IMG/VR virus record: IMGVR_UViG_3300036885_000420 | Location: 1 to 26,755 of that record | Direction: 5' to 3' (one strand) | Source of the DNA: a virus | DNA: 26,755 nt | Shown here: positions 9,553 through 26,755 of the stretch, piece by piece | Layout of the letters: each line of letters begins with the position of its first letter | Numbering within the stretch: the stretch's first letter is position 1 | The notes under the pieces: generated by a model | Told to the model about the DNA's origin: nothing | The model's database searches: none | What the model saw: the letters and a program-made list of their open reading frames with translations, nothing else | Translations under genes and position numbers: made by a program

Positions 9553-10308
9553 TTAAAGTATATCAGTTTTTAGTTCATATAGCCTTACAATATCGTCATT
9601 AAATGTTTTTTCCGAGTATTTCATTTCGGAAAGCTTATTTATGGTTATGGCTATTTTGTCACTGATTTTATCATCAGAAGCATTTTTCAACATTGCTATA
9701 TTTTCATTGATCATTTCTTTAAACAGCTCTTTCTTGTCTTCGCAGTGTATTACTCTTTTTAAAAATTCATTATCAGACTCATTTAAGTCCGAGTATTTCT
9801 CATTGAACTTGTTTATGGCTATTTCAATAACCTCATCAACGTATTGTTCTTCAATAACATTCGCGTTGTTTTTCTCCTTTTTTACGTGGTTTATGACGAA
9901 ATCTAATGATTCGTGTATTAAATTAACATCAACGTCGGAACTAACCTTTAACGATTCTTGGATTAGATTACCAATAGCTTCATATAAATTCAGCCTATAT
10001 TTATCAACGTTTTTTATATCGTCTTTTTTTACAAACTTTTTTAATTTATTATGAACTTCGTTCAACTCTTGAACGGTAAATGTTTCAAATAATTTTATAT
10101 TATTATCAATATATCTGATTGCTTTTATATCTTCGGAGATATATTTATTTTCTATGTTTTCAAAAACGTTAAATTCCAATTGTAATAGGTCAGATTCATT
10201 AAGAATATTGAAAATATCAGCAATAACATCCTTATTTTCATTTAAATTGTTTTTCACAATTTTATTTGATACGACCAAATTGGCAATTCCGATATTAATA
10301 TTGTTCAT
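9553..10308 (-). CDS. Unknown head-cluster protein at the T4 67/68 position
   Basis: This 251-residue protein is mostly predicted helical and acidic, rich in Asn, Asp, Glu, Lys and Ile. It has no cysteine-rich motif (one Cys), no signal peptide and no membrane segment. Blocks such as LLQLEFNVFENIENKYI (about 41-57) and IRYIDNNIKLFETFTV (about 63-78) look conserved in style, but I cannot name the family with confidence. It lies between portal and protease, where T4 has the prohead core genes 67 and 68, so a prohead core or portal-associated role is a reasonable guess from position only. A copy of the shared TATTTATA element lies 18 nt upstream of its start. Confidence 0.85.
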   Translation of the reverse strand: MNNINIGIANLVVSNKIVKNNLNENKDVIADIFNILNESDLLQLEFNVFENIENKYISEDIKAIRYIDNNIKLFETFTVQELNEVHNKLKKFVKKDDIKNVDKYRLNLYEAIGNLIQESLKVSSDVDVNLIHESLDFVINHVKKEKNNANVIEEQYVDEVIEIAINKFNEKYSDLNESDNEFLKRVIHCEDKKELFKEMINENIAMLKNASDDKISDKIAITINKLSEMKYSEKTFNDDIVRLYELKTDIL

Positions 10309-10326: not shown

Positions 10327-10336
10327 ATATAAATAC
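10327..10336 (-). promoter_or_regulatory. Candidate late promoter element for the 9553-10308 gene
   Basis: The minus strand reads GTATTTATAT, 18 nt before the ATG. No gene starts on the plus strand here, so this copy supports reading the element as [C/G]TATTTAT[A/T] in gene direction rather than as the T4-type TATAAATA box. Confidence 0.5.
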
Positions 10337-10364: not shown

Positions 10365-10424
10365 TTATTTTTTTGTAGGGATAAAGACATCATCTTCTTG
10401 GAATTTATAATCAAAATCATCCAT
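10365..10424 (-). CDS. Possible 19-residue micro-ORF, in-frame remnant of the portal-like mini-gene
   Basis: After the TAA of the upstream 40-codon ORF, the same frame stays open for 24 codons and ends EDDVFIPTKK, which resembles the portal's DEDYFLPMRN. Its only ATG is at 10424. GAGG lies 8 nt upstream of that ATG, a rare Shine-Dalgarno-like sequence in this window, although it may only reflect Lys-Glu-Asp codons. It could be independently started, reached by readthrough, or be the dead tail of a broken gene. Confidence 0.35.
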   Translation of the reverse strand: MDDFDYKFQEDDVFIPTKK

Positions 10425-10439
10425 ATCTTTATCCTCTTT

Positions 10440-10562
10440 TTAAAACTTTTCAGCAATCTTTTTAAGATATGTATCAAGTTCATCGTCAGGAATATTGATA
10501 AAATTAATTGTAAATATCCTTTTTTCTCCATTGTTTTCAATAATATTATAAAAATTATCCAT
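10440..10562 (-). CDS. Mini-protein (40 residues) resembling an internal segment of the portal
   Basis: The ORF starts 4 nt after the portal stop, so it is coupled to the portal. Its residues from EKRIFTINFIN to LKKIAEKF align without gaps to portal residues 495-522 (EKKVFKIDVGN to YKVATKF): 11 of 28 are identical by eye and most others are conservative. The ORF then meets TAA exactly where the portal has Lys. The frame remains open beyond it and continues to match the portal (DYKF against DYRF, EDDVFIP against DEDYFLP). The intact ancestor would have been about 65 residues. Whether it is a small regulator or assembly partner of the portal, or a decaying duplication, cannot be told from sequence. 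Confidence 0.6.
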   Translation of the reverse strand: MDNFYNIIENNGEKRIFTINFINIPDDELDTYLKKIAEKF

Positions 10563-10566
10563 AGTT

Positions 10567-13500
10567 TTATTCCATTAATTTTTTTACAAATTCAGTAACA
10601 TCATCATTCCCATCATTAATTAATTCATCGATTTCTTTAATCATGCTTTCTGTGGCGCCATTAACTTTGTTCAGTTCTGTTTCTGTTATGATCTTCACTC
10701 TAGAATCGGCTTTAATTTTTTCGCCGTACACCAATTCATTAACATAACTATCAAATTCTTCATCAGTTAATGGTGGTTTATTTCTAAAATTCTTTTTGCC
10801 TTTTCTTAAATATCCTTCAGCAGTCATTGGTGGTAATTCACCACCACCTCCAGCTGGTGCTCCGCCACCGCCAATTGGCGCTCCACCCATTGGTGCTTCG
10901 CCACCCACTGGAGCGCCACCCATTGGTGCTCCGCCCATAGGTGCCTGTGGAAGAGTTGACCCACTGGCAGGAACAGTTCCGCCACTACCATAACGTGCAT
11001 CGATATCTGCAAATAATCCACTTTTCTTTATAAGAACTGGAGCGTCTGCAAATTCTTGCATAACAACCTTTTCCATTTTCTGTTGTTTAAGGTCTTCAAC
11101 AATTTGTTTATCGCTCATGTTGAATATTAATCTTTTTGCCCCAGTATGTGACATAGCAGCAATACCATTTTCAGAACGTGTTAATTCTGTGTAGGTTTGT
11201 GCCTTATTCCTCATTGTTTCAGCGTTTTGTATTTCCAATTGGCTGGAAGGATTGGATAATGCCAATGTAAAATCATTCCAATCTTCGGTGCCATAACCCA
11301 TAAGGTATAAATGAATCATGCCCATTTTGGTCAATTCCTGAACCATTGATTTTTGAACTCTATTTACCTTTTTAGCAAATCTTACGTCAAACTGTGCAAC
11401 GTTTTTTCCACCACCAGTAGCATCCTGAAATGATAAAAATGGTTTTGGGATTCCAAGACCGACAAATAAATTATCACGCAGATACTCAATATCATGGATG
11501 TCATTTAGGTTCGAATTTTTAGTAAAAACACCGCAAGTTAAAGCAAAATTATGATAATTGTGGAACTCTTCATTACCGTCGATAGTGATGGTTCCTGTAT
11601 CTTGTTTTTCGGTTAAATATTCGATTGAAACAATAGTATGATTGTAGCATGGCACATTTTCAATAAAATGAGACCAATCATTATAATTATAATATCTTAT
11701 TAATTTTAAAACATTTTTCCTTGTAAATTTTGTAAACGATTTATAAAATGGCTTATTTTTATTTAATTCGATAAATATTGTTTTAAAGGCATTAAATTCG
11801 GTGTTTATATGATTAACAAAGGATTCTAATCGATCATCATTTTCTTTTACAAACTCAATTAAATACTTTAATAATTCCTGATTATATACATAGGATTGTG
11901 AAATTTTAATTCTGTTGTTAATTTCTTTATTTGCTCTTATTCTCTTACCCTGAATTCTTTTTATTTCTCTATAGGTATCTGTCTTCATTACTTCTTTAAG
12001 AGTATTTCTAGATTTTTCTGAGGTAACATTTTTTGTACCACAGGCTAAAAATTTAATTGCTTGTTCAGGAGTAAAGTTTTTTATGGCTTTTTTACGCTTA
12101 TTACTTATATTTGTATTTCTGAGTATTTTTTGATCTTCGCTTAAATTATTTAAATAGTTTATAAATCCAGCATTTAACTTTTTAACTCTTTCGGCCATAT
12201 CAACATCAGACATATTAGAAATTCCAAGGTTTGAGTGATATTTAAAATGGTCTACATAACCCATAGAAACTAAATTGTCAGGGCTATTATCATATCTGTT
12301 CAGATTTGAATGATGTATAACTGTTTTTTTATCATTAACATGCTTTTCATCAAAAACAAACACATTATTAATTCCTTGTGACTCTAAATAATCTTTAACG
12401 AGTCTATGTGTATATACATATTCTTGTTTTGAATGATCATAAACCATTTCATAATCTTTATCATATTTGCCATTATTTTTACTGTTTTTAATTGTTTCAA
12501 ATTTCTTGTTAAAAGACCACAAAGATTCACCAACAATTAAATCTTTAGCTTCTTTAGTATTTCCTAATCTCGTGTTAAACTTATGATCAGGAGTACATAT
12601 AATAGATTTACCGTTGTCTAATGTTAGTTTTAAAACTTCTGTATTTTTACGAGTCACACCCGCCCATGTTATTTTCGCAGGGACAATCAATCCAGTTTGA
12701 GGATTTATAGAATACGACCACAATTTTTTCCCAGCCTCATATTCGTTTATAATTTGCTGTAATTCAAGGCTTCTACCATCCAATAATTCTATTTGCGTAT
12801 TTAATGCCAAACATGCTCCTGGGAGCGTATCTATTCCAGATTGCGTATTTGCGTTTCTCATTGGTAAGAAATAGTCTTCGTCGTTACCAAGGACATTAAA
12901 TCTATAATCAATTTGTCCACTGTTGGGATTTATTTGTTGGGTTTTTTTAAATTTTGTAGCAACCTTATACATGTATTCTTCAATATCATCTTCGTCCATA
13001 TTTCCGACATCTATTTTGAATACTTTTTTCTCTCCTGCGCGAATAATTCTATATGTTAGCATAGCATCCTCAGCCATTATAAGCTGGCGGAACACGCGCC
13101 TTACTTTATTTAACATACTAGATCCATATGGAATATATTTATCATCGCCAAGTAATCTAAAGTGAGCTATTTCAAAGGTGTTAAATTCATCGCCAGTCAT
13201 TCTTTCTTTAAATTTGATTGTTGGTTTGCCGTTTATAACTCTTTCGGTGCGTTCAATATCGTAATTAACCATTTGTTTTACGGCGGTAATTCCTTTATTT
13301 TTTTCGCCATAAAGCAACACGAAATTATCCCCATATTTACAATTCGATAAAAACACTCCATTTCTAGTATATTCGCCATTTTCATTTTTACTGCAAATGG
13401 GAAAATTATGTCTATCTTGTTCATTATTAGGCCCAACCACCTCCATGCAATATACATCATATTTTTCAGATATTCGTTCTACAGATTTTACCTTATGATT

Positions 13501-14514
13501 TAAAATACAATTTTTATTTCCACGAGTTGCCGAAATAGCCGAAGCACGCCTAAAATTTGGGTGATCAATAAAATTAGGATTTACACTTTTTGCAAAGTCA
13601 CAATTTGCTTTATTTTCATTTTCGGAATTTACAATACATTCTTTAGCAACAAGTCTATGCGTAAATATATGGCGATTTGATGACGGATCATAAACTCTTT
13701 CATATCCAGAAATAAGATTTGATTCATTGCTAGTTAATGTATAAAAGGGCATTAAGCTAACGCCTTCTTTTAATTCATCAGCCCTAACATATGATCCATT
13801 TCTTAACATGTATTCGTGATCTGATGTTGTTTCAACACATGTATCGTCATCGAAAGTAACTCTGATAATTTCACTATCTTTCCTTGTTAAATCACACCAA
13901 ATAATTTTACCAGGCATTACCTTTTTTGTATTATCTTGAATAGAATATGTCCAAATTTCTTTATGCGGATTTTCCTTTAATCTCTCAGATAATTCTTTTA
14001 TTGAGATTATTTCGCCATTCAATAAAGGAATAGCACTGTCATATTTAACAGGCGTGTTCCTCGTCCAAAACGGTAAATTTGTATTAATATTTAAGATATC
14101 GTAATAGAATTCTTCTAATATATTTTTTATTCTTTCTTTATTAGAATATATATTTAATACCTTACCGTCTATTCCCATTGTTGTGGCCTCTTCCATGAAT
14201 AAATCCAAAGCACTTGAAATAATTGGATAATATTCCATACCCTCATAGTCCATGTATGCGGGCAATCTTGCTGCTTCATACTGCAATGCTTTTTGATAAT
14301 TTCTGTCGGTTGTCTTGTTAAATTTATCATAAAGCTTATTTTTTTGTTCAATTTCTAATGCTTTACGAGCAATTTCTTCGGGGGAATTACCCTTAATTAT
14401 AATTTTTTTTGTTGCAGTATCTTTAACGTCATTGCCCGTTACCTGAAAGCCCATTCCATCCAGATTAAACATCTGATTGAGCTGTTGATATATAGTTCCT
14501 TTTTTATTATCCAT
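10567..14514 (-). CDS. 20: Portal protein, T4 gp20-like, interrupted by two inteins
   Basis: The 1315-residue precursor should give about 645 residues after removal of two inteins. The portal forms the dodecameric ring at one head vertex, where terminase docks and the tail later joins. Extein 1 (1-154) ends in NINTNLPFWTRNT. Extein 2 (392-567) holds CKYGDNFVLLYGEK, FNTFEIAHFRLLGDD, YGSSMLNKVRR and DEDYFLPMRN, all typical of gp20. Extein 3 (1001-1315) resumes with SNLNDIHDIEYLRDNL and GIPKPFLSF. A Gly/Ala/Pro/Met-rich repeat (APMGG units, about 1188-1225) lies near the C-terminus and is probably a flexible linker. The start at 14514 follows an A/T-rich leader with a copy of the shared element 22 nt upstream. 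Proper function requires splicing of both inteins. Confidence 0.93.
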   Translation of the reverse strand: MDNKKGTIYQQLNQMFNLDGMGFQVTGNDVKDTATKKIIIKGNSPEEIARKALEIEQKNKLYDKFNKTTDRNYQKALQYEAARLPAYMDYEGMEYYPIISSALDLFMEEATTMGIDGKVLNIYSNKERIKNILEEFYYDILNINTNLPFWTRNTPVKYDSAIPLLNGEIISIKELSERLKENPHKEIWTYSIQDNTKKVMPGKIIWCDLTRKDSEIIRVTFDDDTCVETTSDHEYMLRNGSYVRADELKEGVSLMPFYTLTSNESNLISGYERVYDPSSNRHIFTHRLVAKECIVNSENENKANCDFAKSVNPNFIDHPNFRRASAISATRGNKNCILNHKVKSVERISEKYDVYCMEVVGPNNEQDRHNFPICSKNENGEYTRNGVFLSNCKYGDNFVLLYGEKNKGITAVKQMVNYDIERTERVINGKPTIKFKERMTGDEFNTFEIAHFRLLGDDKYIPYGSSMLNKVRRVFRQLIMAEDAMLTYRIIRAGEKKVFKIDVGNMDEDDIEEYMYKVATKFKKTQQINPNSGQIDYRFNVLGNDEDYFLPMRNANTQSGIDTLPGACLALNTQIELLDGRSLELQQIINEYEAGKKLWSYSINPQTGLIVPAKITWAGVTRKNTEVLKLTLDNGKSIICTPDHKFNTRLGNTKEAKDLIVGESLWSFNKKFETIKNSKNNGKYDKDYEMVYDHSKQEYVYTHRLVKDYLESQGINNVFVFDEKHVNDKKTVIHHSNLNRYDNSPDNLVSMGYVDHFKYHSNLGISNMSDVDMAERVKKLNAGFINYLNNLSEDQKILRNTNISNKRKKAIKNFTPEQAIKFLACGTKNVTSEKSRNTLKEVMKTDTYREIKRIQGKRIRANKEINNRIKISQSYVYNQELLKYLIEFVKENDDRLESFVNHINTEFNAFKTIFIELNKNKPFYKSFTKFTRKNVLKLIRYYNYNDWSHFIENVPCYNHTIVSIEYLTEKQDTGTITIDGNEEFHNYHNFALTCGVFTKNSNLNDIHDIEYLRDNLFVGLGIPKPFLSFQDATGGGKNVAQFDVRFAKKVNRVQKSMVQELTKMGMIHLYLMGYGTEDWNDFTLALSNPSSQLEIQNAETMRNKAQTYTELTRSENGIAAMSHTGAKRLIFNMSDKQIVEDLKQQKMEKVVMQEFADAPVLIKKSGLFADIDARYGSGGTVPASGSTLPQAPMGGAPMGGAPVGGEAPMGGAPIGGGGAPAGGGGELPPMTAEGYLRKGKKNFRNKPPLTDEEFDSYVNELVYGEKIKADSRVKIITETELNKVNGATESMIKEIDELINDGNDDVTEFVKKLME
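11515..12813 (-). mobile_element. Portal intein 2 (433 residues) with HNH endonuclease
   Basis: It comprises portal residues 568-1000. It begins with Cys (CLALNTQIELLDG) after TLPGA and ends GVFTKN before Ser+1 (SNLNDIHD). Removing it restores the expected portal sequence DTLPGASNLND. The splicing block with TPDHKF is at about 661-666. An HNH homing endonuclease core is visible (VIHHSNLNRYDNSPDNLVSM, then DHFKYH), followed by a basic helical, probably DNA-binding region rich in Lys/Arg/Asn. The usual penultimate His is replaced by Lys (TKN); splicing without this His is known for other inteins. Its fold regions resemble portal intein 1. Confidence 0.9.
13342..14052 (-). mobile_element. Portal intein 1 (about 237 residues), unusual: starts with Pro, no endonuclease
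   Basis: It comprises portal residues 155-391. Removing it joins PFWTRNT to CKYGDNF, as expected for a portal. Visible splicing blocks are LLNGEIISIKEL, the TTSDHEYML block-B region, VYCMEV (block F) and GVFLSN before Cys+1. The first residue by this boundary is Pro155 (or Thr154 if shifted by one), not Cys or Ser, and the penultimate residue is Ser rather than His. A Cys sits at the block-F position used by class 3 inteins. The central region (YERVYDPSS, THRLV) resembles intein 2, but the HNH core is missing, so the endonuclease has probably been lost. Boundaries are inferred by splicing to portal motifs. Confidence 0.8.
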
Positions 14515-14630: not shown

Positions 14631-16070
14631 ATGAAATCTAAAGTGTTCGTTGAACGCGCCATATTAAAACATGGTAATAAATATGATTATTCTTTAGTTA
14701 CTGATGCTCAAATTAAAGAAAAATCAAAAATTATTTGCCCAACGCATGGTATTTTTGAACAAAGGGGAGACGCCCATTTAAGTGGTCAGGGGTGTGGGAA
14801 ATGTGGTAATTCAATATTAAAAAGTGCTGACGATTTTATAATAGCAGCTAATAAAATTCATAAAAACAAGTATAATTATGATTTTGTTAATTACATTAAT
14901 TGTAAGATAGCCATAAATATCATATGTCCTATACATGGCTTTTTTAAGCAAACTCCTGATAGTCACTTATCTGGACATGGGTGTAAGCTGTGCTCTTCAG
15001 AAATAAATGCTATAAAAATGGTGGAAATTACCGCAGAACAATTTATTAATAAAGCAATTGTAATTCATAATAATAAATATAAATATCCAAATGTTGAATA
15101 TATCAATGCAAAGACTAAAATAAATATTCATTGCAAAAAACATGGGGAATTCGAACAAACTCCGAATGATCATTTGTCAGGTAAGGGTTGTTCTAAATGT
15201 GGGGTCAACTTATCTATTGGCGAAAATGACGTTAGAGGCTTTATTGAGAACGAATTGAATTTATTTACCGATAAAATAAAAATAGACAACAAAGAAATTG
15301 ATATTTATGTACCCCCCAAAAAAGTTGGTATAGAATATGACGGATTATATTTTCATTCTGTTTTATTTAAGGGTAAAAAATATCATCAACAAAAAACAGA
15401 TTTATGTGAAAAAAATGACATACAATTATTGCATATTTTTGAGGATGAGTGGGCGAATAAAAAAGAAATTGTCAAATCTATTATAAAATCAAAATTGGGA
15501 ATATTTTCTGATAAAATATTTGCTAGAAAATGTACTATAAGAGAAATTAACTCTAAAGAATCTGCAAAATTTTTAGTTGAAAATCACTTGCAGGGAAATA
15601 CTGGTAGTAGTGTAAAAATTGGGTTATATTATAATAATGAATTGGTATCCGTTATGACCCTTGGGAAGAAGAGAATATCTATGGGAGTAAAAACAAGAAT
15701 TGATGGGGAATATGAGTTAATAAGATTTTGCAATAAACAAAATACCTTAGTTATTGGTGGTGCAAGTAAATTATTGAATTATTTTATAAAAACATATAAT
15801 CCCAAATCTATTTTAACTTTTGCAGATAGAAGATACTCTAATGGCAATCTCTATAAACAATTAGGGTTTACACTTATTGGAAATACAGAGCCAAATTATT
15901 TTTATTTTAAACAGCATGACTTAAAAAGAGAATATCGTTTCAAATTTAGAAAAGATATTTTAATAAAAAATGGGTTTGATGCATCAAAAACAGAACATCA
16001 AATCATGGAAGAAAGAGGATATTTCCGAATTTATGATTGCGGTAGCATGAAATTCGAAAAATGCTTTTAA
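14631..16070 (+). CDS. Free-standing homing endonuclease, Hef/VSR-like, with three Cys/His modules
   Basis: This 479-residue protein has three zinc-ribbon-like units in tandem (DUF723-like): C36/H39 with C55/C58, C99/H102 with C118/C121, and C168/H171 with C187/C190, each with an HLSG-G-GC core. These probably bind DNA. A nuclease domain of the VSR/EDxHD (PD-(D/E)xK) kind follows at about 197-285, with Asp224, GIEYDGLYFH (Glu235, Asp237), the Gln/Lys region 253-255 and LHIFEDEW. The C-terminal half (about 310-450, YELIRFCNKQ and FADRRYSNGNLY) is a domain often joined to such phage endonucleases. Free-standing enzymes of this type cut relatives' genomes and spread with their flanks. It is the only plus-strand gene in the packaging module. 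A hairpin terminator follows. Confidence 0.88.
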   Translation: MKSKVFVERAILKHGNKYDYSLVTDAQIKEKSKIICPTHGIFEQRGDAHLSGQGCGKCGNSILKSADDFIIAANKIHKNKYNYDFVNYINCKIAINIICPIHGFFKQTPDSHLSGHGCKLCSSEINAIKMVEITAEQFINKAIVIHNNKYKYPNVEYINAKTKINIHCKKHGEFEQTPNDHLSGKGCSKCGVNLSIGENDVRGFIENELNLFTDKIKIDNKEIDIYVPPKKVGIEYDGLYFHSVLFKGKKYHQQKTDLCEKNDIQLLHIFEDEWANKKEIVKSIIKSKLGIFSDKIFARKCTIREINSKESAKFLVENHLQGNTGSSVKIGLYYNNELVSVMTLGKKRISMGVKTRIDGEYELIRFCNKQNTLVIGGASKLLNYFIKTYNPKSILTFADRRYSNGNLYKQLGFTLIGNTEPNYFYFKQHDLKREYRFKFRKDILIKNGFDASKTEHQIMEERGYFRIYDCGSMKFEKCF

Positions 16071-16662: not shown

Positions 16663-19600
16663 TTATTTGGGAACAACACCGTTAAACAGCCAAGAATAAA
16701 CAATATATGGATTTAATGACGAATCACTGTTTGGGGGTATCATTGGTTTACGCTTACCGTCTTCTTTGGATTTAAAGTTTTCAACATCATTTGTTGTTAA
16801 TAATGATTTTAACATGCTTTCTGTTACTCCACTACTTTGTTTATATCTTGCCATGTCAAAATTTATAACATATAAACCAATAGATAAACCCATTATAGAA
16901 TCATCATGAAAAGATCTTTTATGGTCAGCAACTCTATTTCCAGCAACAGTTATAAACGTTTTAAGTTCATTTAAGAGCCTTATGGATCGAATAACGATAT
17001 CTTCCAAGTGTATTGACCTCTGTAACTCTAACAACACTGATGCCCTGTTATTTCCAATAAAAAATCCTGGAATTAAATCAACGGTTATAATACTACCATC
17101 AGACATTGTTTTTTGTCCTTTTTTGATATATCCTTGCAATCTATCTCTTGATGGCTTGTGCGACACCTCGGCATAATGAATATTTTCATATCCAATTTCA
17201 AGTAATTTTTCAACAGTTTGAACACCATATCCACCAGTTATATCAACAACGCAATATGCATTATTATATACTTTACCATATTGATAAACAATTTCGGCAA
17301 GACCTTGGGGAGTTATTTTACCGTAATATTCAGCTACTTGTATTACTTTATGTTTTTTTATTTTTACTTTTTTTTGTTTGCCATTTTTCGTTATTATTTT
17401 TTCTTCAATTAATTCATTTTTTTTCAACACATTTATTGTTGAATTATCTTCACCGTGCCCAGGCGAAGCATCAATTGTTATGATGTATTCCTGTTCGGGT
17501 TCTGGATCTTCAAATATCCACATATTTCTGTCAACATATTCTTGACGGATAGGCGTCATTATTTCATAATCTTGAATTCTTTTTAAATATTCTTCTGATA
17601 TAAAATTGTCGCCAGAACCCAAAAATGAGCAATTATGATTAGATAATCCATTTGCAAAATATTCACAACCCTCAGAATCAACAATATCATAAAATTCGGT
17701 TTCGTTATTTTCTTCAATAGATTTTACAAAAAAATCGCCAAAAACTGTGCTGATATATGTTTCATTTGACACAAGCGATTTTAACGGCATATTTTTTCCA
17801 TTTGCTAAAAAAATATGGTCTTCGCTAACAATTATTGAATGATCGTTTTCTAAGGTAATTTTAAATCCTTTTTCTTTGTATGATTTTTCAATACCGAAAA
17901 ACATAAAAAATCCAGAAATATTTAATATCTCAAAACAATCATTATATTTAATATTTGATTTTATATTAATTAAACTATCATATATATTTGAAATTTTATC
18001 TTTAATTATTTCTTTTGTTTCAATATCTCTAATACAAATTATAGAATCTTTACCAACGCACATTAATTCTTGTGCAATTTTCTTCATATCGCCGTTGGCA
18101 TCACGAATTTGTTCTTCAAACCAAGGCGATGATGCTTCCCACCCATCATCCATTAATTTTATTCGATGTTCGTTTTCCCAATTTTCATCTATTAATCTTA
18201 TTTCTGTTTCTTTGTTTTTATTCTTCAACCAAACAAGATCTTTATTGTATCTGGGGTCATTAAACCACCATAATTCAATTGCTTTAAAATTGTTTTCACC
18301 TCGTCTGGCTCCGTCAAAAGTTTTATAAAAAACGGCGTCCAAACCTGATGGCGTATTGTGAGTAACTATCTGATTATAAACCACTGAGTGGTTAAATTCG
18401 TTTGGCTCTTCTGAAAAATTGGGCAAAGAAAAATCGTATGTGTAATTTTTTGATTTCTGTATTGAATTTATTTTTGTCCAAATTATATTTGGATTAATAA
18501 TATGATCAATAGACATACCAATAATTGACTTTAAATTACTAAGATCCGAAAATGTGCTATTTTTTATATAATTTATTAATCTTAACAGCATTAATCTGTT
18601 AATTGGTTTGCTTTTATATTTTTTTTCAGTGACAAAGGGTTCTATATTGATATTATAATCCAATAATGAATTGTATATGTTTTTTGCCTTTATTTTTGCA
18701 TATAATTCATATAATATTTCTCCGCCATTTGGAATGGTATCATTATTTTTTCCATGACATTGAACATTATTTATTTTGTATTTATTACACATATTCTGTT
18801 TTCTATCAAATCTAAAGCCTATTTCGCTGAAATATTTTTCAGAAAATTTACCAGCCATTGTGATTGAATATGAATTAGATTTTACTTTTACTTTTTTTGT
18901 TGGCTTTGTCACTTTAAAGAAATATCGGGTAATAATTCCCAAATTTCCAAAAAGTATTCTAATTTGATTTATCATTTCTTGGGAAGACAGTCCAATGCCC
19001 ACGCTTAAATTATTATTTTTTTCATTATATATTGCCCAGCCATCGCCATCCATAATTCCCTGAAGCATAGCAACAATATTTTTTCTGCTCATTTCTAATA
19101 ATCTTAATGGTATTATTTTTTCTTTGGCTTTTTTATTTATATCAAACCCTAAAAATTTTAAAAATTCGCCTAAATTTTTTGATGTTATAACATAATGAAT
19201 ACCGTCAAAATAATAATTTAAATTATGCGCTTCAAATATGTGTGATAATGAATCTCCGCATGTTAATACAAATCTTGTTGTTTTTATGTTGTTTTTAAAA
19301 TAAATATCTTTAGCATATCCCTCACTTAAATACAGTCCCAATAAATATGCTATGTCTGTTGTAATTTTTTTGGGAAAAAATACATTCTTTATCAATTTTG
19401 ACTCGGTGGGTTTAAAATTTGAACAATCATCATTATTGCCCCAAATATTCATACCATATTGGATTGATATATAATCGCCAATTTTTAATTCTGATGATTT
19501 ATACCATCCGTATCTTTTATCTTTTATTTTATATGCCCAATATTTATGATTAAGGCTGGATTCCAATTCAGAATATGTTGATTTTATTTTTAAAGTATCA

Positions 19601-20547
19601 ACAAAGCCATTATTGAAAAATAAGTTACCTGTTCTTAATTTATCTTTTCCCAACACATTATAATTATCTATAATATGTGTGCCCAATTTTTCGTTTGATA
19701 TAAAATCTTTTATTTGTTTAACACCATTATTTGTATATATATATGTGTCTTTAGTCACACATGATACCATAATACATCTACCTCCAGTTTGCAACGTGGG
19801 TTTTGCTGCTGTCCAAAATCTATCGCCTTTTTCTGTCCACGCTGTTTCATCCCAAGCTAAAAGCGTGGGAGTTAACCCTCTAAGGCCTTTCGATGAAAAT
19901 GCACCCAAAGTCGATCCGTTATCGTATCTTTTTAATTTTTGAGTATCCTTATATACTTTATCGGAATCTTTACCAGTTTTTGGCCTTAACCACTCTGGAC
20001 AGCCATCAATAAATTCAACAACATCGTTCATTAATTCATCACGGGCAGTTTCCAATTTATCAGCCACAATAGCGACGCTTCTGTTGCTATTAAAAGAAAC
20101 ATACCAAGCAATATACGCACATGTACTTGTAGAGACACCTGCTTGTCTATATTTATTGGCAATACAGAATCTATTTGTTTGATATGAATTTATAAGTTCT
20201 CTTTGGAAAGGAAATAAAATGAAAGGAACAATTAAACCAGATTTTCCTTGTGTTTGGTCAAAAATTGTCAAATAAGTTTCAATAAAATAAATTGGATCTG
20301 CGCTGCATCTTATGATCTCATCTTCTTGCTCCCGAAATGTTAATTCACTAGCTTTTTTTATTTTTCCATCAAGAGTTGTTATTGTGGCTTCTTTTTTATG
20401 GGAAATTTTTAATTTTTTAGCAAGCTCACGAATTTCTTCTTTTTTCTTATGTTCCCCCTCCAAATCTCTAGGGACTAAAGGTACATGCTCTGGGAAAATA
20501 TTTTCGTTTAATTCTGGAATTTCTACTATGTTCTTTTTTGTTACCAT
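16663..20547 (-). CDS. terL: Terminase large subunit, T4 gp17-like, interrupted by two inteins
   Basis: The 1294-residue precursor should leave a protein of about 682 residues. It is the ATPase and nuclease that pumps DNA into the prohead and cuts concatemers. The ATPase domain has Walker A-like KYRQAGVST (132-140) and Walker B LLAWDE (229-234, with Glu234 catalytic). Intein 1 follows at Cys263 within the conserved IMVS-TPSG motif. Intein 2 lies at 830-972, between the ATPase and nuclease parts, at ELM-CSFLGSG. The nuclease domain shows Asp1026 (IITIDASPG), Asp1102 (CVVDITGG) and Asp1215/1216 (FHDDSIMG). It starts 2 nt after the stop of the upstream gene, so the two are cotranscribed. The protein cannot be an active motor until both inteins are removed. 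Confidence 0.95.
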   Translation of the reverse strand: MVTKKNIVEIPELNENIFPEHVPLVPRDLEGEHKKKEEIRELAKKLKISHKKEATITTLDGKIKKASELTFREQEDEIIRCSADPIYFIETYLTIFDQTQGKSGLIVPFILFPFQRELINSYQTNRFCIANKYRQAGVSTSTCAYIAWYVSFNSNRSVAIVADKLETARDELMNDVVEFIDGCPEWLRPKTGKDSDKVYKDTQKLKRYDNGSTLGAFSSKGLRGLTPTLLAWDETAWTEKGDRFWTAAKPTLQTGGRCIMVSCVTKDTYIYTNNGVKQIKDFISNEKLGTHIIDNYNVLGKDKLRTGNLFFNNGFVDTLKIKSTYSELESSLNHKYWAYKIKDKRYGWYKSSELKIGDYISIQYGMNIWGNNDDCSNFKPTESKLIKNVFFPKKITTDIAYLLGLYLSEGYAKDIYFKNNIKTTRFVLTCGDSLSHIFEAHNLNYYFDGIHYVITSKNLGEFLKFLGFDINKKAKEKIIPLRLLEMSRKNIVAMLQGIMDGDGWAIYNEKNNNLSVGIGLSSQEMINQIRILFGNLGIITRYFFKVTKPTKKVKVKSNSYSITMAGKFSEKYFSEIGFRFDRKQNMCNKYKINNVQCHGKNNDTIPNGGEILYELYAKIKAKNIYNSLLDYNINIEPFVTEKKYKSKPINRLMLLRLINYIKNSTFSDLSNLKSIIGMSIDHIINPNIIWTKINSIQKSKNYTYDFSLPNFSEEPNEFNHSVVYNQIVTHNTPSGLDAVFYKTFDGARRGENNFKAIELWWFNDPRYNKDLVWLKNKNKETEIRLIDENWENEHRIKLMDDGWEASSPWFEEQIRDANGDMKKIAQELMCVGKDSIICIRDIETKEIIKDKISNIYDSLINIKSNIKYNDCFEILNISGFFMFFGIEKSYKEKGFKITLENDHSIIVSEDHIFLANGKNMPLKSLVSNETYISTVFGDFFVKSIEENNETEFYDIVDSEGCEYFANGLSNHNCSFLGSGDNFISEEYLKRIQDYEIMTPIRQEYVDRNMWIFEDPEPEQEYIITIDASPGHGEDNSTINVLKKNELIEEKIITKNGKQKKVKIKKHKVIQVAEYYGKITPQGLAEIVYQYGKVYNNAYCVVDITGGYGVQTVEKLLEIGYENIHYAEVSHKPSRDRLQGYIKKGQKTMSDGSIITVDLIPGFFIGNNRASVLLELQRSIHLEDIVIRSIRLLNELKTFITVAGNRVADHKRSFHDDSIMGLSIGLYVINFDMARYKQSSGVTESMLKSLLTTNDVENFKSKEDGKRKPMIPPNSDSSLNPYIVYSWLFNGVVPK
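17632..18060 (-). mobile_element. Terminase intein 2, a 143-residue mini-intein
   Basis: It comprises residues 830-972. It starts CVGKDSIICIRD and ends GLSNHN before Cys+1 (CSFLGSGDNF). Splicing restores AQELMCSFLGSG, the expected terminase motif. Block B is SEDHIFLANG, and the penultimate His and terminal Asn are present. The length leaves no room for an endonuclease domain, so it has all standard splicing residues but probably no mobility of its own. Confidence 0.9.
18355..19761 (-). mobile_element. Terminase intein 1 (469 residues) with LAGLIDADG endonuclease
   Basis: It comprises residues 263-731. It starts CVTKDTYIYTNNG and ends IVTHN before Thr+1 (TPSGLDAVFY). Splicing restores RCIMVSTPSGLD, the conserved terminase motif after Walker B. 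Two LAGLIDADG-like motifs, LLGLYLSEG (402-410) and MLQGIMDGDGW (494-504), mark a DOD homing endonuclease that looks intact. The penultimate His and terminal Asn are present. Confidence 0.93.
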
Positions 20548-26177: not shown

Positions 26178-26755
26178 ATGTCAATAATAGAGACAGATAC
26201 GCTTGAGTTTACTGATTATACGCCAGAAAGTCCGAAACAAGATTCAAATGATGAAGTTTTAGAATTTGTTGACATAGTAAATCCATCATCTGGAATGTAT
26301 GATGAGTGTGGAGACTTATTAATAATATCTAACAGATCAAATCCCACAGACTTGATAACCCCAAGTACTAGCGGAACATCAGGAACTAGTGGTAGCTCAG
26401 GTAGTAACGGAAGTTCAGGAATTTCTGGAAGTCATGGCACATCTGGTACTACTGCAACGAGTGGTAGTTCAGGTAGTAACGGGTCTTCAGGCACATCAGG
26501 AATTGATGGTAGTTCAGGCACATCTGGTATATCAGGAAGTAGTGGTAGCTCAGGTATTGCTGGAACGAGTGGTAGCTCAGGTAGTAATGGAAGTTCAGGC
26601 ACATCAGGTACTGCTGGAACAAGTGGTACATCGGGTACTTCTGGAACCAGTGGTAGCTCAGGTAGTAACGGAAGTTCAGGCACATCAGGTACTGCTGGAA
26701 CAAGTGGCACATCGGGTACTTCTGGAACCAGTGGTAGCTCAGGAAGTAACGGAAG
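26178..26755 (+). CDS. Collagen-like Gly-X-Y repeat protein, cut by the right edge
   Basis: ATG at 26178 opens a frame that runs to the window end, 192 full codons. Residues 1-63 are an acidic non-repeat head (MSIIETDTLEFTDY to SNRSNPTDLITPS). From about residue 65 (26370) onwards the protein is made of Gly-X-Y triplets in which X and Y are almost only Ser, Thr, Asn, Ile, Ala, Asp or His; proline is absent from the repeats. One triplet has Ala instead of Gly (GCA at 26454-26456). Collagen-like stretches of this kind form trimers in phage tail fibres. The end of the gene, where a head or receptor-binding domain would lie, is outside the window. Confidence 0.9.
   Translation, partial: MSIIETDTLEFTDYTPESPKQDSNDEVLEFVDIVNPSSGMYDECGDLLIISNRSNPTDLITPSTSGTSGTSGSSGSNGSSGISGSHGTSGTTATSGSSGSNGSSGTSGIDGSSGTSGISGSSGSSGIAGTSGSSGSNGSSGTSGTAGTSGTSGTSGTSGSSGSNGSSGTSGTAGTSGTSGTSGTSGSSGSNG
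26583..26755 (+). repeat. 81-bp tandem repeat in the collagen-like gene
   Basis: Copies start at 26583, 26664 and 26745 (the last cut by the edge). The unit is 81 bp, that is nine Gly-X-Y triplets, with only a few silent differences between the first two copies. The in-frame period means that copy-number change keeps the reading frame. Confidence 0.85.

Follow-up and report, generated by a model that had tools for sequence, protein, structure and literature searches.

Immediately after its portal gene, an uncultured T4-like phage carries a short frame that, on sequence comparison, is truly homologous to the clip segment found in portal proteins of the T4 type. The window, that is the whole stretch of 26,755 nucleotides analysed here (IMG/VR record IMGVR_UViG_3300036885_000420, positions 1-26,755), encodes this mini-clip gene at 10365..10562 (-) in a frame of 65 codons and a final stop, which is broken at codon 41 by an in-frame TAA (10440..10442, -), as established by translation, BLASTP, hhalign and an intact homologue. 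It is best read as a fast-evolving, dispensable clip paralogue that would mimic the terminase-docking surface and is now decaying or truncated. The explanation that we find best, and consider probable, is that the clip domain of a T4-type portal protein gave rise to a small gene, whose intact form would have tempered docking and which a nonsense codon has cut short in the window phage. No free-standing portal-clip gene was found in the literature or in the cultured-phage records searched, the literature gave nothing relevant on portal paralogues or partial portal duplication at title and abstract level, and a free-standing clip mini-gene is apparently undescribed so far.

Homology of the mini-gene to the portal clip

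The portal gene (10567..14514, -), of the T4 gp20 type and carrying two inteins, matched Pfam Portal_T4 with E 9.8e-49, and the ATG of the mini-gene lies 4 nt past its stop. The full frame translates into a first ORF of 40 aa, MDNFYNIIENNGEKRIFTINFINIPDDELDTYLKKIAEKF (10440..10562, -), followed by the TAA and by a tail, KEDKDMDDFDYKFQEDDVFIPTKK (10365..10439, -), closed by a second stop. Based on HMM scores, the phmmer register and the domain limits of PMC4493910, the first ORF is the counterpart of T4 gp20 274-308, comprising clip strand, docking tip and helix alpha6, and the tail that of the last clip strand (ED-Y-FLP in the portal). Downstream of the mini-gene stand the promoter-like TATTTAT element of the next gene (10329..10335, -), within a block conserved in relatives, and that gene itself (251 aa; 9553..10308, -), which is kept after the portal in relatives.

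The search for homologues covered IMG/VR and gave two distinct members of the mini family among the matches listed, those of the window and of record L190. In BLASTP the window mini matched its own portal with 35.4 bits (E 7e-8; 22 of 67 residues identical, portal residues 488-553), placing the corresponding clip segment of the portal gene at 12853..13053 (-; residues 488-554). The 40-aa half reached 25.2 bits with an HMM of the portal segments of relatives (20.9 thousand six-frame fragments; best non-portal fragment, 7.7) and 32.7 bits with a broader portal HMM (best non-portal fragment, 11.7). Taken alone, the tail after the TAA resembled the own portal segment weakly (p 0.002-0.005), with lower values against deeper portals of the own clade (p 0.0002-0.0006) and against the tail of the L190 mini (p 0.0002). 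When the profile of the two minis was compared with the clip segments of 19 portals, hhalign gave a probability of 99.1% (E 4.5e-19), and because the 56 matched columns include the part after the stop, both sides of the TAA are homologous to the clip. Chance similarity was ruled out by the HMM scores together with this profile match. The first-pass annotation had described a miniature portal paralogue behind the portal gene, broken by a TAA at these positions in a frame homologous on both sides, and had proposed a significant profile match to the portal segment as its test; all of this is borne out by the values above.

Curated models were less sensitive: the window mini alone gave no useful match to Pfam or PHROG portal models, and the L190 mini matched PHROG 213 with E 2.9e-4 and Portal_T4 (PF07230) with E 1.3e-3 and 18.0 bits, below the gathering score of 22.9, so that the curated PF07230 cut-off was reached by neither. 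The order of elements in the clip of T4 gp20 (PF07230, PHROG 213), namely strand, docking tip, helix alpha6 and returning strand, was recovered with homologous elements in the alignment and in the AlphaFold model of the L190 mini. Unlike that clip, the mini is free-standing, with 64-65 aa encoded directly behind the portal gene, and unlike the whole portal, with its wing, stem, clip and crown, it lacks wing, stem, crown and channel loop and has a shortened helix-strand loop. With about 65 residues covering the clip segment alone, it is thus a clip paralogue and not a portal protein. The two minis are 44% identical to each other, versus about 75% between their portals. Both lack two Arg and the Ala before the strand, conserved in portal clips, and the window mini also lacks the Gly of VGN; the loss of these near-invariant portal residues indicates that the window mini has of late been free of portal constraint. 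Short ORFs missed by family models can, as this case cautions, be paralogues of large neighbours.

Relatives, the intact copy and coding constraint

A search of IMG/VR with the portal extein gave 80 portals of 75-81% identity, a list biased to intein-free portals because interrupted genes rank lower. No mini-gene was detected in the about 71 of these 80 relatives with a readable place behind the portal stop, where 50-85 nt with a conserved promoter-like block lead to a gene of about 258 aa. An unrelated 60-aa ORF (MKIEEFLRKNGKKYNLRVIGEKNDKLHIEV..), without a clear PHROG match, occupies the place directly behind the portal stop in L036/L038, which suggests that the portal-downstream junction tolerates small inserted genes; with the slot empty in most relatives and filled by this unrelated ORF in L036/L038, the mini-gene is to be regarded as optional. 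A profile search seeded with the window mini and deeper portals recovered L190 (IMGVR_UViG_3300050033_000393), which encodes in the same slot an uninterrupted homologue of 64 aa, MENINMPDHSEKRVFTINVGNIPEDEIEEYIRSIVIKFKKEIRDIDTLNIPDCDIFIPEKREEL (L190:2480-2674), with an ordinary lysine codon aligned with the window TAA. The comparison with small ORFs behind the portal genes of related phages, proposed as a check in the first-pass annotation, gave this homologue in L190, while most relatives have nothing in the slot. The L190 mini starts 14 nt inside the portal end, overlapping the portal stop, and is followed by a 252-aa gene. Given an intact homologue in the same slot with Lys in place of the stop, the window mini is, as far as sequence can tell, a real small gene in an allele interrupted by a nonsense codon. 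No further free mini copy was found in 35 whole records searched. The L190 portal is 95.5% identical to that of L008, 89.9% to that of L012 and 74.5% to that of the window (C-terminal part); the 178 nt of mini-gene in L190 stand against 7 nt in L008, and L012 also lacks the mini-gene. Its absence from L008 and L012 despite their close portals marks it as dispensable.

The position recalls T4 gp67, a prohead core protein likewise encoded by a small gene directly behind portal gene 20. In contrast to the optional mini-gene, that of gp67 regularly belongs to the head cluster of T4-like phages, and gp67 is not known to resemble the portal. Compared by family labels, no gp67-labelled family was among the PHROG or Pfam matches of either mini.

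Codon usage was gene-like in the mini frame both before (0.37 bits per codon) and after the TAA (0.49), against an average of 0.335 for real genes and a 95th percentile of 0.104 out of frame, and was not gene-like in the other five frames of the locus. Between the window mini and its own portal, 58.8% of aligned bases were alike, with 61, 73 and 42% at codon positions 1, 2 and 3; under neutral simulation to equal DNA identity the summed BLOSUM score came to 45 (s.d. 18) versus the 133 observed, which was reached in 0 of 5000 runs. Portal constraint could explain part of this similarity if the mini came from another portal, a confound largely avoided by comparing the two minis, which agreed at 62, 75 and 38% of codon positions 1, 2 and 3 (Fisher p 7e-5). 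These patterns in the sequence indicate that the mini-gene diverged as a protein-coding gene under protein constraint, and the nonsense codon is therefore probably recent. As in a pseudogene, the window frame is interrupted at codon 41 while that of L190 is intact; as to loss of constraint, the sequence on either side of the TAA still has gene-like codon usage and homology in the few copies at hand, so that decay of the window mini, if any, would be recent.

The docking surface and its predicted free form

Aligned by phmmer with 3ja7/6uzc, residue 488 of the window portal corresponds to T4 gp20 Y274, and the whole mini frame in this register to about 274-340, lacking 7 residues between helix alpha6 and the last strand. 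The docking-tip counterpart, NIPDDE (residues N23-E28; 10479..10496, -), aligns with N291 to K296 of gp20 according to this register and PMC4493910. The T4 clip comprises gp20 279-358, and its tip residues N291, M292, R295 and K296 contact gp17 (PMC4493910); a terminase interaction region was mapped to gp20 D279-A316, and a mutation of clip residue 308 suppresses a terminase mutation (PMC10893049). A gp20 288-311 peptide, as cited in PMC4493910, binds gp17 and inhibits packaging. That peptide, as described in the citation, covers the same portal stretch as the core of the mini, although it is an experimental peptide and not a phage gene, and the T4 tip is basic (R295/K296) whereas the tip is acidic here, with DEDD in the window portal and PDDE and PEDE in the minis. 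The contact chemistry of T4 is thus not directly transferable, and the partner surface must differ from that of T4. Since the copied segment is the terminase-docking clip, the decoy role suggested in the first-pass annotation becomes more plausible.

AlphaFold modelled the L190 mini with a strand at 14-18, a helix at 24-43 and a strand at 55-59 (mean pLDDT 71.6; 80-89 over residues 11-40). Named matches to this model in a viral fold library were mostly portal vertex proteins (prob 0.72-0.95, all with E > 0.04), and a fold search of the PDB gave no significant match. The model of the window mini read through the TAA had a pLDDT of 61 and was set aside.

From the T4 data and the model, the intact protein would present the portal docking surface in free form: the 64-aa L190 form is predicted to fold as strand-helix-strand, keeping the docking tip and helix and dropping part of the helix-strand loop. 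Placement at or overlapping the portal stop suggests translational coupling to the portal. By analogy with gp20, the intact protein most likely bound the large terminase (or portal neighbours), so tempering docking. Should it be produced and bind the terminase, docking of the motor to the portal, which has so far been studied through mutants and synthetic peptides, would have a natural regulator. The broader proposal that some T4-like phages of this clade encode a clip microprotein able to bind their own terminase or that of a competitor and to regulate docking, as a natural version of the T4 inhibitory peptide, is put forward only tentatively. Even as a decaying gene, it shows that domains of the portal can be split off and retained in the form of small genes.

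A further conserved family, A8 (L248:577-867, L249-L260), of about 96 aa (VYYIGTAMIPENQIESYVKQI..EIIVIPT..DTRIECINPKYI), occurs in about 15 of 49 records searched, mostly of related large phages. Its N-terminal strand-helix matched the portal clip over 30 columns (hhalign 91.5%, E 8.7e-7) and, more weakly, the minis (40.7%). From its sequence, A8 is possibly another free-standing clip-like protein, of greater age, and the clip microprotein may be one of a larger group of small phage proteins resembling the clip, of which A8 would be an example.

The in-frame stop codon and the origin of the mini-gene

The TAA is most simply explained if a dispensable gene is present as a nonsense allele, most likely a decaying one in the window phage, which would shorten the product to 40 aa, possibly still a peptide carrying the docking element. 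That the 40-aa ORF is itself a functional product, with its strand, docking tip and helix alpha6 competing for the terminase and a dead tail behind it, is unlikely but deserves consideration: the stop directly behind the helix makes such a peptide possible, its ATG lies close behind the portal stop, and the ORF spans 21 of the 24 residues of the inhibitory peptide 288-311, as that peptide is cited. Yet the intact relative is full length, and the tail keeps its homology and gene-like codon usage, by which the truncation looks recent. The same open, homologous and gene-like frame after the TAA would be expected if readthrough or recoding yielded the full 65-aa protein, a reading we consider highly improbable, as no special stop context was identified and TAA terminates other window genes, including the portal gene. 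TAA is the least leaky stop, and decay appears the better account than readthrough. Two split micro-proteins, the second from the internal in-frame ATG (10422-10424) behind A-rich sequence and a GAGG, hardly seem credible: the second product, of 19 aa, would hold the last strand only, L190 encodes a single chain, and the GAGG, given in the first-pass annotation with this option, was rejected as a ribosome site because no window gene has a convincing Shine-Dalgarno sequence. Equally hard to credit is the sequence error that had also been envisaged, with an intact gene in the real phage. No frameshift is involved, and the same TAA stands in a second, separately named contig, 3300037088_000697 (L002/L188), which is the only other carrier of the window form and has 1 SNP against the window over 6.5 kb; the two contigs apparently stem from one viral population, so that the shared TAA argues against an assembly error and is not proof of fixation.

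It has also to be weighed whether the mini was left behind passively by homing or intein traffic, as a piece of the portal that recombination placed there and that never functioned. The two inteins of the portal gene and the adjoining homing-endonuclease gene would fit such an origin, which we nevertheless judge improbable given the coding constraint between the two minis, the intact L190 relative, and the presence of intein 1 without a mini-gene in L246 and L247 and of intein 2 without one in L247. A link to intein 1 had looked perfect until these two records were considered, and a link to intein 2 was rejected because its other carriers lack the mini-gene.

For a clip-derived small gene later cut by a nonsense codon, presence in the window and L190 and absence from L008/L012 imply two losses, two gains or transfer; the mini-gene would have been present at least since the common ancestor of the window phage and the L190/L008 group, or have moved between them. 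In a tree of the 73-column segment, a long branch (1.29) leads to the window mini from the stem of its own portal clade (86/78), and the mini scored highest against deeper members of that clade. Recent tandem duplication of the own portal seems unlikely, with DNA identity of only 59% and sister placement to the own portal borderline rejected (p 0.048); placement within other portal groups (L003 or L115 types) was not rejected (AU p 0.11-0.12; L003-type, p 0.109), and donation by such a group is thus possible. The window portal and the window mini share an MDN start, where the L190 mini starts MEN, and from this common start the window mini is possibly an internally deleted portal copy.

Both packaging genes of the window phage are heavily loaded with inteins. 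Portal intein 1 has Thr as its first residue (TPVKYD), a position usually taken by Cys or Ser, and its WCDLT and VYCMEV motifs recall those of class 3 inteins; an HNH is present in intein 2 (CLALNT..FTKN). L190, L246 and L247 have ends resembling those of intein 1, and L247 has intein 2 as well. The large terminase gene (16663-20547, -) has intein-like insertions too, one with a LAGLIDADG domain. Beside the portal gene, a free-standing homing-endonuclease-like gene (14631-16070, +; PHROG 559, E 3.6e-126) matches the Mom DNA-modification family in its C-terminal part (PF25680, E 2.7e-6).

TATTTAT occurs within 60 nt upstream of 9 of the 14 window genes, often at 22-34 nt, and is conserved upstream of the 258-aa gene of relatives; its reverse complement makes up most of the T4 late promoter TATAAATA. 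TAnnTTTG elements precede the ORFs starting at 415, 16613 and 21032 (-) and at 14631 (+), and their likeness to the Bacteroidota promoter, together with the lack of convincing Shine-Dalgarno sequences, suggests a Bacteroidota host. Near the contig end, frames of Pro-Leu-Val repeats (26432-26712, -) lie opposite a repetitive stretch that is probably collagen-like or tail-fibre coding.
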